Assembly: GCF_000970305.1 (NCBI RefSeq)
Contig: NZ_CP009517.1
Coordinates: forward strand, 3,286,001 to 3,350,000
Length of the DNA: 64,000 bases
Reading direction: 5' to 3'
Origin: Methanosarcina barkeri 3
Lineage (GTDB): Archaea; Halobacteriota; Methanosarcinia; Methanosarcinales; Methanosarcinaceae
Under the pieces are notes generated by a model. The model ran no database searches. It saw nothing but the letters and a program-made list of their open reading frames with translations, and had not been told where the DNA came from. Made by a program: the position numbers and the translations under genes. Within the stretch, counting starts at the first letter, position 1. Each line of letters starts with the position of its first letter. Shown one piece after another: positions 40,965-55,478 of this stretch.

Positions 40965-41528
40965 TTAGTATTCAAAATGTGAAAGAAATACATTCAAAAC
41001 TTTCTCATTTGTTTCAAGCCCATTTTTGATCCTAATTGCATCTCCTTCCGAAATCCAATCAGTTGATCCGTCTCCAATACGAATATAACACAAGATAGAC
41101 TGTTTTAATTGAAGATTATTTTTTTTCAACATTGCGATAAATTTTTTATCTGCTATGAACTCTTCGGGTAATATAATTATGTTATAGTTTTCTTTTCTGA
41201 TTTCAACTTCAAAAGTCAAATTTTCATCTTTCTTCAGCTCATTTATTATATCGGTTTTTTTATCTTGGTCTACAGTTATGTAGTATCTTCTTAGCATATC
41301 CTTGGAGTCGTAATCTATGGTATAGTTCTCAGTTATGTTGTAATTATCAAGAATGGCATTAACTTCTGGCTCAGTAGTTCCGTTTTCAAATTGGATATAT
41401 ATACCACTTACCTGCGGTTCTTGAGTTTGTTTTTTCATATCAATTGAAGTTTTTATACATAGTCCAAGCAGTATTGCAAGAATCAGAAAAAAGGCAAAAG
41501 CAGCTATTGTATTACTACTTTTACTCAT
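40965..41528 (-). CDS. UPF0228 family protein
   Basis: This 187-residue protein has an N-terminal membrane helix (about 9-27) and an extracellular domain with SGIYIQFENGTTEPEVNAIL, YNITENYTIDYDS and IIILPEEF. It fits UPF0228, a family known mainly from Methanosarcina and of unknown function. The ATG at 41528 is preceded by GAGGTG with six-base spacing; a GTG at 41537 is in frame but lies too close. A hairpin with a T-run stands just upstream. Confidence 0.85.
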   Translation of the reverse strand: MSKSSNTIAAFAFFLILAILLGLCIKTSIDMKKQTQEPQVSGIYIQFENGTTEPEVNAILDNYNITENYTIDYDSKDMLRRYYITVDQDKKTDIINELKKDENLTFEVEIRKENYNIIILPEEFIADKKFIAMLKKNNLQLKQSILCYIRIGDGSTDWISEGDAIRIKNGLETNEKVLNVFLSHFEY

Positions 41529-41532
41529 ATTA

Positions 41533-41566
41533 TTCACCTCAAAAAATGAGGAGTTTTAACTCCTCA
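41533..41566 (-). promoter_or_regulatory. Leader hairpin plus T-run before the UPF0228 start (possible attenuator)
   Basis: On the minus strand TGAGGAGT pairs with ACTCCTCA (41547-41566) around a four-base loop and is followed by TTTTTT and then the ribosome binding site GAGGTG. The ACTCCTC arm could instead pair with the ribosome binding site. This is the form of a terminator or attenuator placed directly before the start codon. Confidence 0.5.
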
Positions 41567-42633
41567 CATATATGCGATCAGCTTCAGAACCAAGTGTTTT
41601 CCAATAAGCCATACCTAACGACGTATAGTAAGGGTCACCTATACGCAAATATTACCACTTTGTTTATATCTACGACAAACTCTGGCATGAGTTCCAGTTC
41701 CACTCCTGAAAGGTCTATAATTGTTAATTTCAGAAACAGCTTTGTAAAAGTCAAGAAAGTACATTTGAACTCTATAAATTCCTTAGTATTAGTTCATTAT
41801 AAGTCTTATGTCCAAATTATCTAACAATATAATTTTCGAACTAATTTTAAGTTTTAAATTGTTATTTGATGTCTGAATATTAGATGATTTAGCTATAAAG
41901 TATATCTAGTTTATATATGAGAGAATTGCCTTTAGTCATACTTTACTTCATCCAAAATTATCCAGCCTATATTCCGTAGTATTCTTTCAAAAATAAATAA
42001 TTTCCCTGATAGCATTTTTGAAATATAAGTAATATACTTAATGACACTTGGTGAAAATTAAATAAATTTTTTTATTCTCTAATTCACCAGTGAGAAGACA
42101 ATTCAACTAACATCTTCGAAAATTAAGTTTGAATATTTTTTCAATGGTTTTCGTTATTTACAGTTTTTAAATTCCTACTAATTATATGCAAAAATTTATT
42201 AAAAAGTATACAAAAAATTAATAAATATAGAAAGATATTTAGCAAACTATAAAAATTTTTATTAATGTGCCATAGTGTTACCTGATAAATATTTATTTGT
42301 AAAAAAATAATTAGGAACGTTATGATTAATACCAATGATTTCGATGTTAAAACCAGAATTAGGAATCTTTTTATTAAAGAGTTGCCTTATTCTTAAAAAT
42401 ATTTTTACGTATTTACTCTTTATGATTTCAGAAATGCATTTGTGTATTTAAAGCCTTTAAGTTCTGAAAATATATAATATTTGCAATAACTTACCCGCGA
42501 TATCTGAAAAGCTAATTTAGCGAGCTAAATTCTAGCAAATAATCCTAAAATTTGAGGAGGTGTGGATACGCTACTGTATAAAAATTTAACTGCCAAAGAC
42601 AATAATATATTTTGTTCTGACCACCTTCAGCCG
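41567..42633. other. AT-rich intergenic region with a decayed copy of the next gene's start
   Basis: No complete gene is visible in about 1.07 kb. At 42337-42396 there is a sequence similar (about 70 percent by eye over 60 bases) to the start of the following gene at 42633-42692, including TCGATGTTAAAAC and AGAATTA followed by TTTTTATT. A strong GGAGGTG at 42556-42562 lies about 72 bp before the likely start codon and has no well-spaced in-frame start. The rest is AT-rich. Confidence 0.5.
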
Positions 42634-44127: not shown

Positions 44128-44317
44128 TGCGTCATATATGTATCAAAAACCTGTATAAAGAGATCTTGTAAATTTGAAAAATTTGAGAACAAACCATAAA
44201 TTCTGAAAAATTATGCCCTTTTCACAGAAAGGAAAAGAGCATTTCAAATCAATAACTTCTAGAGCTTAGATTTCTAGAGCTCAAAAATTTAGTTATTATT
44301 TATTATTTATTATTTAT

Positions 44318-44851
44318 TTACTTATAAAATGTCTTTAAAGTTGAGAGCATAAAGTTTCGGAAAAGCCCTTCGGTTTCCACCTTCAGAGAGCCGTCATTCA
44401 TGCTTTTTACGGCTTCCTTTAAAGGTTCTTTTGAATCAAGCACATTTTGTATGGTTTTTTCATCGGTTTCCACTGTGATGGAAGGTCCAAACTTTGAGTT
44501 TGGGTCATCAGGAGTTTCATAACTGTAGAAATCCCTTACTTGTCCTCCTCCCATAAGTAAAGTCACGTAAAGCATCTCGCCGTTCTCAAGTTTGATTTTC
44601 CCGGCGATCTCCTCACTGGCCACCAGTCTCTGCAGAATATCAGGAACTTTATCGAAATTCTTGTTATAAAGCTCGACGTTTGCACTCAGTTCTGCAAAGA
44701 GAGCATTTTCATTAGTAGAATTCTCAGGCGCTTGATAAAGGTCAGCTTTTTTGATACTGCCTGTATTCGAAGCTGCCCCCGCTATTGGGACAAGTAAAAG
44801 CAGAATTAAAATCAAAAGACTCAAAGCTTTAGTTTTACTGCAAGGAGACAT
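44318..44851 (-). CDS. Secreted protein with SCP2-like domain
   Basis: This 177-residue protein has a signal peptide (KALSLLILILLLLVPIAGAAS). Its body pairs a strand-rich segment (LENGEMLYVTLLMGGGQV) with ITVETDEKTIQNVLDSKEPLKEAVKSM and a C-terminal LKVETEGLFRNFMLSTLKTF. That order resembles SCP2 sterol-carrier domains, but the call is tentative. The frame is open much further upstream (to 45019) only because a 22-bp tandem repeat happens to be open; the ATG at 44851 gives a proper signal peptide. Confidence 0.6.
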   Translation of the reverse strand: MSPCSKTKALSLLILILLLLVPIAGAASNTGSIKKADLYQAPENSTNENALFAELSANVELYNKNFDKVPDILQRLVASEEIAGKIKLENGEMLYVTLLMGGGQVRDFYSYETPDDPNSKFGPSITVETDEKTIQNVLDSKEPLKEAVKSMNDGSLKVETEGLFRNFMLSTLKTFYK

Positions 44852-44921
44852 AACTGAAAATAAGAGGAAGGAATATAAAAAAGTTATTGATACAAAAATA
44901 AAAAAGATACTGATACAAAAT

Positions 44922-45009
44922 ATACTGAAGCAGGACAAAAAGCATACTGAAGCAGGACAAAAAGTATACTGAAGCAGAACAAAAAGTATACTGAAGCAGA
45001 ACAAAAAGA
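44922..45009. repeat. 22-bp minisatellite, 4 copies
   Basis: Units start at 44922, 44944, 44966 and 44988 with the pattern ATACTGAAGCAGRACAAAAAGY. It lies in the upstream region of the SCP2-like gene. Confidence 0.93.
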
Positions 45010-45478
45010 CTAGAAACAAGATGATCAGTATATAAATTGGATTCTGAACACTTTTCCCTTAATGACTTTACGAACATTAAATAGTAATCAATATATAAAC
45101 ATACCTTTTAGAATCTGTTCCTTTACGAATATGCCCCAAACTTAGGTAAAGCTAAATTGTGTACAAAACGAAAAAAGAAAAGAAAAGAAAAAATTAAAAA
45201 ATGGAGGTTATAATTAGATATTGAGCCCGTTTTTGGAGGCCTGGAAGACAGGCAATAAAAATGAGTCAAAGCAGTAAAATCAACTAAATTTGCTTTGACA
45301 ATCAAATATTGTACCATGGATTATATAAAGATATCTATTTTTCTCTTCAAGAGGGTAATTACCTTGTGAAATTATATAGAAAAAAAGAATTATATAACGG
45401 AATAAAATTAATAAAAAATTGTTTAAAGGAATGAAAATCGATAAAATAATAAGTTAGGTCTATCTCGAAAAGCCTGAA
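45010..45478. other. Intergenic region (469 bp)
   Basis: It contains an A-rich, GAAAAGA-type simple sequence at about 45165-45200. No gene, tandem array or clear hairpin is visible. Confidence 0.45.
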
Positions 45479-53208: not shown

Positions 53209-53388
53209 ACACCATTTTATAAAACGCTGTAAACCAATTTTCGGGATGAGGCGAAACGAAACTATCTTCGACAATGGACGTAATAAATAACTCAGATTGA
53301 TGAAGAATGGTGAACCCCCTTAAATTATTGATCCCGACAATTCTTCTTACACATAATTGGTCTTAACAAATATGGAGGAAACAACAAA

Positions 53389-55440
53389 ATGAAGAGATTT
53401 GTAGCCAGTGCACTGGCGGCTCTCATGCTTCTGACTGTATTTGCATCCGCCGCAATGGCTGATGATAATAATACAACCTCAGCAGCAAGTACAGTTGAGA
53501 TCCGCGGCCCTGTGTACAATGGCTCAAGCTTAACCGACATCCTTGCAAACACTGCATACGGTAACGGTACAGCTATTACAATGGATGCTAACAAATTTGC
53601 AGCATTCTATTACGATATTGACGATAATGTAACAACCGAGTCTCTTTCCATTAAGAACGTTGCCGGTACTTCTGGCAGGACTATAGGAGAGAACGGTTTA
53701 GTGTATACAACAACAATCGGAAAAGCCGAATACGAGAACAAAGATGTCGACTGGGGCAACTACAGCGTGATTGGCTTCTTCGCAGACAAGTACATCCCGC
53801 TGAAATCTAACGACGCCAGCAAGCTCGCCAAGCTCGTTGTTGACAGTGATGACAAGCAAACTCTCAAGACCGGCGACACTCTTGACCTCGGTGACGGATA
53901 CTCTCTCCAGGCCAAGCAGGTAGACGTTGACGGTGATAAAGTCTGGCTTGAACTCGACAAGGACGGACAGTATGTAGATGACCAGATCGTCTCAACTGAC
54001 TCTGGCGATCATACATGGACTTGCGAAGTTGACGACGTGCAGGGTGAAGACAATGTTCCTGTCTTGAAGGTACATGTCAATCAGGTCTTCCAGGGCGCAG
54101 TTGACAGCGTTGCACAGATTGATGCTATCTGGCTTATTGACTATGCAAACGCAATAAAGATCGACTCTGATGATGAATTCGGCAAACTCGACGATGTTTC
54201 TATCAACGGTCCGACCATCACCATCAGCAACGATGATACATTCAGCCTGACTAAAGACTCTGATCAGGAAATCGGACAGGGATTATACTTCAAGGTTGCT
54301 GACTCCGATGCTCTCAGGTTCTATGCCTATAAGCAGCAAACAACTTCTGGAACCTATGATGTAAGAGGAACCGTTGTTTCCGGCACGCAGCCTTACACCT
54401 GGACTCCAGACAACTTTGCCGGATTCTTCTATGACCTGAAGAAAAATGTTGGAACCGAAACTTTGAATGTTTCCGGCGTTGACGGAAGAACTATTCCTGA
54501 AAACGGCCTCAAATACAGCACCACCATAAGCAAGGTTGATTATGATGCCGATGATGCATTCAATGGAACGTACCCTGTTCTCGGTTTCTTTGCACAGAAG
54601 TATGTCCCGCTGAAATCTAACGACGCCAGCAAGCTCGCCAAGCTCGTTGTTGACAGTGATGACAAGCAAACTCTCAAGACCGGCGACACTCTTGACCTCG
54701 GTGACGGATACTCTCTCCAGGCCAAGCAGGTAGACGTTGACGGTGATAAGGTCTGGCTTGAACTCGACAAGGACGGACAGTATGTGGATGACCAGATCGT
54801 CTCAACTGACTCTGGCGATCATACCTGGACTTGCGAAGTTGACGACGTGCAGGGTGAAGACAATGTTCCTGTCTTGAAGGTACATGTCAATCAGGTCTTC
54901 CAGGGCGCAGTTGACAGCGTTGCACAGATTGACGGGCTCTGGCTCATTGACTATGCAAACGCAATAAAGATCGACTCCGACGACGAGTTCGGTAAACTCA
55001 ACGATGTTTCTATCAACGGTCCGACCATCACCATCAGCAACGATGATACATTCAGCCTGACTAAAGACTCTGATCAGGAAATCGGACAGGGAATGTACTT
55101 CAAGGTCGCTGACTCCAGTGAGCTCAGATACTACCCATATGTTCAGCAGACCCTTGGTAATGAAACAACTACAACCACCTCGGGTAACATAACCAGCATC
55201 GATAACACAACAAGTATTGATAACACAAGTGTTACTCCAACTCCAGTTGAGAACAGCACTGAAGAAACTCAAGATGTAAATGCGAGCACTCCTACAGAGA
55301 CCCCGGTTACATCAACTCCAGATACATCAGCTGCTGCAAACAACACCACCGAAACAAAGAACAATACTCCTGGCTTTGAGATTGTCCCGGCAATCTTCGG
55401 ACTGCTGTCAGTCTTCTACATCGTCAGGAAGAACAGATAA
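53389..55440 (+). CDS. Major S-layer protein (two S-layer domains, PGF-CTERM)
   Basis: This 683-residue protein has a signal peptide (about 1-24, ending AMA). Two tandem S-layer domains (about 38-300 and 310-585) are of the Methanosarcina S-layer type. A Thr/Asn/Ser-rich glycosylation-prone linker (about 590-650) leads to the PGF-CTERM segment (NTPGFEIV...VRKNR). Sequence GGAG lies about 10 bp before the ATG. The gene is GC-richer than its surroundings, as expected for a highly expressed gene. The two domains contain a DNA block that is almost identical at an 810-bp offset (about 53796-54120 and 54606-54930), which suggests gene conversion. A strong terminator follows. Confidence 0.93.
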   Translation: MKRFVASALAALMLLTVFASAAMADDNNTTSAASTVEIRGPVYNGSSLTDILANTAYGNGTAITMDANKFAAFYYDIDDNVTTESLSIKNVAGTSGRTIGENGLVYTTTIGKAEYENKDVDWGNYSVIGFFADKYIPLKSNDASKLAKLVVDSDDKQTLKTGDTLDLGDGYSLQAKQVDVDGDKVWLELDKDGQYVDDQIVSTDSGDHTWTCEVDDVQGEDNVPVLKVHVNQVFQGAVDSVAQIDAIWLIDYANAIKIDSDDEFGKLDDVSINGPTITISNDDTFSLTKDSDQEIGQGLYFKVADSDALRFYAYKQQTTSGTYDVRGTVVSGTQPYTWTPDNFAGFFYDLKKNVGTETLNVSGVDGRTIPENGLKYSTTISKVDYDADDAFNGTYPVLGFFAQKYVPLKSNDASKLAKLVVDSDDKQTLKTGDTLDLGDGYSLQAKQVDVDGDKVWLELDKDGQYVDDQIVSTDSGDHTWTCEVDDVQGEDNVPVLKVHVNQVFQGAVDSVAQIDGLWLIDYANAIKIDSDDEFGKLNDVSINGPTITISNDDTFSLTKDSDQEIGQGMYFKVADSSELRYYPYVQQTLGNETTTTTSGNITSIDNTTSIDNTSVTPTPVENSTEETQDVNASTPTETPVTSTPDTSAAANNTTETKNNTPGFEIVPAIFGLLSVFYIVRKNR

Positions 55441-55451
55441 ATTATCTGAGT

Positions 55452-55478
55452 GAAGGATTTTCTTAATCCTTCTTTTTT
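55452..55478 (+). terminator. Terminator hairpin of the S-layer gene
   Basis: GAAGGATT (55452-55459) pairs with AATCCTTC (55465-55472) around TTCTT and is followed by six Ts. It starts 12 bp after the stop codon. Confidence 0.8.

Follow-up and report, generated by a model that had tools for sequence, protein, structure and literature searches.

A conserved, terminator-like hairpin at the stop codon of C39-like peptidase genes preceding UPF0228 in Methanosarcina

Intrinsic (Rho-independent) terminators of bacteria consist of a stem with a short loop and a U-run directly after it, and attenuators and riboswitches likewise place a hairpin and a U-run in a leader. In archaea, M. mazei among them, passages of PMC8716108 and PMC7515710 report terminators that are U-runs with no hairpin; according to the former, it is the archaeal terminator factor aCPSF1 that binds the U-tracts, with a preference for two or more U4 tracts. 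For Haloferax, an extract of PMC7237163 gives 59% termination of transcripts at a hairpin motif, and much read-through. Between MA0829 and MA0830 of M. acetivorans a hairpin has been predicted, and the expression of MA0830 is 2-7% that of MA0829 (stated in part of PMC3361143). This last case is like the locus described here in that the hairpin stands between two co-directional Methanosarcina genes, the second of them weakly expressed; the genes are other ones, and the likeness is drawn from hairpin placement and expression as that excerpt gives them.

The DNA analysed here, referred to as the window, is a 64,000-nt stretch of Methanosarcina barkeri 3 (NZ_CP009517.1, positions 3,286,001 to 3,350,000). 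On its minus strand, 41567-41546 reads GTGAGGAGT-TAAA-ACTCCTCAT, a stem-loop of nine pairs (eight Watson-Crick and one outer G-U), with the 5' arm at 41567-41559, the loop TAAA at 41558-41555 and the 3' arm at 41554-41546. A T6 run follows at 41541-41546, its first T doubling as the G-U partner, and a stem with an immediate U-run is a feature of intrinsic terminators. Next comes GAGGTG (41535-41540), which its spacing suggests is the ribosome-binding site of a UPF0228 gene of 187 aa (40965-41528, minus strand); the likely ATG is at 41528, and the hairpin lies 17 nt before it. The first-pass annotation had placed an eight-base stem with T6 just upstream of this ribosome-binding site, at 41533-41566, which covers the hairpin, and that description stands. 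Folding energy does not by itself set the 101-nt window leader apart (z -1.09; 26 of 200 shuffles fold as well), so the case for the hairpin rests on comparison.

The frame upstream of UPF0228 ends, in translation, in ...RIYVRS-TAA, with the stop codon in the hairpin arm and loop; in the window, TAA (41556-41558) lies inside the loop. This frame belongs to a C39-like peptidase gene of which the window keeps only remnants, namely the C-terminal one (YLRIGDPYYTSLGMAYWKTLGSEADRIYVRS, 41559-41651, minus strand) and a second one in a different frame at 41663-41755 (minus strand; G000:C1:3327663-3327755, 58% identity, E 6.4e-4). Intact copies encode C39-like peptidases in open frames some 400 aa long, and the three intact copies scanned all match Peptidase_C39_2 (PF13529), at 38.5-44.7 bits against a cut-off of 24. 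The R-I-Y codons contain, immediately 5' of the stem, the sequence CATATAT (41568-41574, minus strand), which would be a candidate TATA box if the junction were a promoter.

The downstream gene matches PF05727 in a profile search (136.9 bits against a cut-off of 25), and nine further matches are present in its own genome. It had been called Methanosarcina-specific; however, PF05727 was found in 33 of 111 genomes of the family, spread over 6 of 14 genera. Its three closest homologues are two from other species (L061, 65%, and L062, 60%), which have neither peptidase nor hairpin, and a paralogue in its own genome (L154, 63%), which has both. The predicted structure, of fair quality (mean pLDDT 81.3), is an N-terminal helix and a ferredoxin-like fold; it matches numerous ferredoxin-like proteins of unrelated kinds (the best with Z 9.5 and an rmsd of 3.0 over 89 residues), Foldseek gave a best E of 3.1e-4 with TM under 0.35, and a profile search of solved structures with UPF0228 gave nothing below E 0.15. 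A role as protease inhibitor or propeptide was considered and dropped, the ferredoxin-like matches to the predicted model being too general to point to any function. A literature search for UPF0228 with Methanosarcina found nothing, and among the matches listed for peptidase C39, PF13529 or PF05727 with Methanosarcina no title was on this gene pair. In three places (L045, L214 and G003:C2:4150431-4151435), two UPF0228 domains are fused in a single open frame of ~346-361 aa. A UPF0228 relative 58% identical to that of the window (L283, DBTL01000079.1) is on a contig titled Bacteroides sp. UBA1317, perhaps through a binning error.

Searched as DNA, the region upstream of the gene recurs in front of other UPF0228 copies. 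From the homologue match rows, 94 upstream regions of the genus were kept, leaving out second-domain rows, short fragments and two near-identical G019 copies (one of them back as L197), and merging of identical leaders took the set from 96 to 92. A hairpin with a T-run in the last 75 nt is present in 33 of these 92 unique leaders, against 2.1 expected from dinucleotide shuffles, and 32 of the 33, the window included, end 14-20 nt before the start; the remaining one (L106), 44 nt away, looks like chance. The stems vary by paired changes, with GAGGAG/CTCCTC, GAAGAG/CTCTTC and longer forms, and G-U pairs are retained in several copies. In an alignment of 37 chosen leaders, degraded ones included and three of them misplaced by MAFFT (L082, L083 and L110), 91.3% of stem cells pair and 14 cells have changed on both sides, each value being reached by none of 500 shuffles, and pairing falls to 64% or less when one arm is slid. 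On the same alignment two of five covariation measures are not above shuffles, these being the number of pairs with two-sided change (reached by 31 of 500) and the number of further pair types (392 of 500). A stricter, smaller alignment of 25 better-preserved leaders, which leans towards the structure, agrees on the covariation. The covariance model built from it, which these 25 match by construction, gave 45 matches in 18 of 30 genomes of the genus when the best 150 first-look candidates per genome were scored. By coordinates, 41 of the 45 coincide with loci of the existing set. The four new ones are L232 and L251, each before a UPF0228-like start, L250, which comes after a peptidase tail and has no UPF0228, and L237, a weak match whose neighbours carry no identification.

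The hairpin was found in 29 of the 34 leaders that have a peptidase tail and in 3 of the 58 that do not; a leader counted as having a tail when tblastn gave a hit close to the start or when a short motif was present, so the label of L108 may be chance. Four of the five leaders with a tail and no hairpin have a stem with one or two mismatches or a rearranged one (L066, L076 and L086; L083). Where tail and hairpin occur together, a run of five or more T is present in 29 of 29, as in archaeal U-tract terminators, and the hairpin encloses the peptidase stop codon in 26 of 29, longer stems not excepted; in these 26 the start codon follows 26-36 nt after the stop. The three with the stop outside are L087, L108 and L153. 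In L153, the peptidase frame stays open across the hairpin and continues in the direction of the UPF0228 start. In L017, the same stretch lies about 50 nt after the peptidase stop, and UPF0228 was not detected in the next 1.6 kb. Conservation before other UPF0228 genes, a point raised by the first-pass annotation, holds for many of them and follows the peptidase tail. Since the hairpin tracks this tail, it is not, on the sequence evidence, a UPF0228 element, and the better name for it is stop-codon hairpin of the C39-like peptidase gene.

This association also bears on the proposal that the arrangement is an attenuator or RNA switch. An RNA switch or translation attenuator for UPF0228 would have the CTCCTC arm mask the ribosome-binding site, and in the window the ACTCCTC arm can indeed pair with GAGGTG, at -7.3 kcal/mol against -12.9 arm with arm; a few other copies reach -6.5 to -8.5. 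Over 32 copies, however, pairing of the 3' arm with the leader has a mean of -3.8 kcal/mol against -12.2 for arm with arm, and the flanks pair with each other no better in native than in swapped combinations (permutation 0.57); a closing helix between the peptidase tail and the ribosome-binding site was rejected, native energies being equal to swapped ones. That UPF0228 leaders without a peptidase tail have the hairpin in just 3 of 58 also counts against such a switch. A search of the window against Rfam gave 0 matches at gathering scores to described RNA families. The junction shares hairpin and U-run with attenuators and riboswitches and differs from them in having no conserved alternative pairing and no Rfam match in the window. 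Because the pairing with the ribosome-binding site is not conserved and no described family matches, a switch of this kind is highly improbable, and the pairing noticed at first is possible in the window and no conserved feature. The attenuation part of the proposal is plausible, since a conserved terminator-like hairpin and U-run stand before many UPF0228 genes.

The element is not a generic terminator of its genome, a candidate rejected because such hairpins are rare at gene ends. Of 40 unique peptidase 3' ends, 16 were positive in the same scan; in the own genome, 3 of 209 gene ends were. This rarity, together with the archaeal host, the stop codon inside the hairpin (26/29) and a start codon only 26-36 nt past it, sets the junction apart from bacterial intrinsic terminators, with which it shares the immediate U-run, the short loop and a stem that is 6-12 pairs long in the leaders. 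Within the window, the sole annotated-length gene end that passes the hairpin and T-run scan is at 55452-55472 (plus strand), a perfect GAAGGATTTTCTTAATCCTTC with T6 just after the gene at 53388-55440. An eleven-pair hairpin with a T-rich tail also occurs at 44213-44242 (minus strand), downstream of the open frame 44318-45019.

The scan-negative peptidases come mostly from one branch, in which the stop is followed by a long inverted repeat (TTCGATAAAC...GTTTATCGAA); over 20 of their ends the mean folding z is -2.6, with 9 below -3, against a mean of -0.59 over the 209 background gene ends, with 16 below -3. Near-identical inverted repeats of about 90 nt with 18-pair ends (GAGGACTTCGATAAACC...GGTTTATCGAAGTCCTC) are present at four unrelated places of the own genome (L204, L205, L206 and L208 in G000; four weak hits with the same query part), and a diverged relative lies 3' of the stop in one C39-like peptidase branch (L180, L185, L194, L267 and others). 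The dispersed repeat looks like a miniature inverted-repeat element. The long inverted repeat was dropped as a second form of terminator, as it resembles this mobile-type repeat and was more likely inserted; it is counted as no support.

These repeats leave room for the view that the hairpin has no present function and is either a passenger in duplications of the peptidase-UPF0228 pair or, within Methanosarcina, a remnant of the outer arms of the dispersed repeat. The outermost letters of that repeat, which occurs at four other places of the genome and has its relative after other peptidase genes, resemble the short stem by eye, and a perfect hairpin persists in L250, a double relic that lacks UPF0228. 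The compensated stems of diverged paralogues speak against a mere leftover, as do other genera in which the stems are unrelated and the pairing and the position of the stop codon are kept, and a hairpin with no present function is decidedly unlikely.

For those genera, nine peptidase 3' ends were chosen from the out-of-genus match rows, and six of the nine have a short hairpin with a U-run, the stop codon lying within or touching the hairpin in all six. The hairpin of G035 is as in Methanosarcina and that of G109 is similar to the longer Methanosarcina form, while in G065, G072, G066 and G059 the stems are unrelated to those of Methanosarcina, that of G059 being A-T rich; stem sequence is similar within the genus and unrelated in four of the six. 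The peptidase of G066 is a distant relative (27% identity), and no UPF0228 match was found downstream of G066 or G109 in the PF05727 search of 111 genomes of the family. The remaining three ends have the long repeat of the other peptidase branch (G046), five pairs only (G051) or none (G058). Leader folding z is -3.45 in G065, -2.65 in G035 and -1.42 in G072, and near zero in G051, G038 and one G058 copy.

The same comparison weighs on a reading of the junction as DNA, in which ATATAT in the last peptidase codons would be the TATA box of an internal promoter, UPF0228 transcripts would start near the T-run and the inverted repeat would be the site of a dimeric regulator. Of the 29 leaders that combine tail and hairpin, 25 contain TATATA or ATATAT; of the 55 with neither, 17 do. 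In the peptidases preceding UPF0228, ATA encodes the Ile of the tail in 16 of 16 (elsewhere in these genes it makes up 32% of Ile codons) and GTG the Val of the tail in 18 of 19 (7% elsewhere), so codon usage does not account for how constant ATATAT and its codons are, which counts for a promoter with an operator; a terminator gives no explanation of the fixed ATA codon. The TATA boxes of Methanolobus, about 19-22 nt from the start according to a passage of PMC5378194, would place the start near the stem end. However, the other peptidase branch is also mostly ATA (14 of 16), no A-rich BRE is visible by eye, stem length varies, G-U pairs are kept in several copies, and the unrelated stems of four of the six short hairpins in other genera are unlike the operator of a single protein. 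Compensatory change alone cannot tell a DNA palindrome from an RNA stem. Taken with the rest of this evidence, a promoter with an operator is unlikely.

It is proposed instead, with about an even chance of being right, that hairpin and U-run form a conserved, terminator-like 3'-end element of the C39-like peptidase gene which lets part of the transcripts into UPF0228. The anatomy, the pairing kept while the sequence changes and the link to the peptidase tail are observed; co-transcription, termination and partial read-through are inferred. The element, between the peptidase gene and the downstream UPF0228 with the peptidase stop in the loop or 5' arm, would cause RNA polymerase to pause at the U-run, or aCPSF1 would act there; the peptidase mRNA would have its 3' end fixed or protected by the hairpin, and only a fraction of transcription would continue into UPF0228. 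The geometry of stem and U-run, the conservation of pairing over sequence and the retained G-U pairs argue for a terminator, and the partial termination in Haloferax and the weak expression of MA0830 are in keeping with it; against it stand the hairpin-free terminators excerpted above, and the window has a single T6 run where aCPSF1 is described as preferring two or more U4 tracts.

The same anatomy would also suit a processing or stabilising hairpin, with a dicistronic RNA cut at the U-run and the hairpin shielding the peptidase mRNA from 3' exonucleases, giving unequal amounts of the two messages in the absence of termination. In clostridia, intercistronic stem-loops set operon stoichiometry, as parts of PMC4423207 and PMC10311766 describe; this precedent is bacterial, and such a role at the archaeal junction is rather improbable.

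With partial termination, the hairpin of the window, where the peptidase has decayed, would be a leftover still able to attenuate as a leader if transcription starts upstream; given the perfect hairpin of L250, its retention in the window may only reflect recent decay. A ribosome-gated version of the terminator is conceivable too, though quite unlikely: with the peptidase stop placed in the loop or 5' arm, a ribosome ending the peptidase would cover the stem as RNA polymerase passes the U-run, so that UPF0228 would be transcribed only under full peptidase translation and poorly translated peptidase mRNA would be cut short. If true, the peptidase frame would be its own leader peptide and would tie UPF0228 output to peptidase synthesis.

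The RNA-like element at this junction is real and conserved, and partial termination is its most likely role as judged from comparative sequence data. Archaeal termination being described as U-run driven and hairpin-free, a junction hairpin that has a U-run, encloses the stop codon and is kept by compensatory change in several genera offers a defined setting in which to ask whether termination in archaea is controlled by RNA structure and by translation as far as the stop codon, and the junction links UPF0228, a family of unknown function, to a C39-like peptidase.
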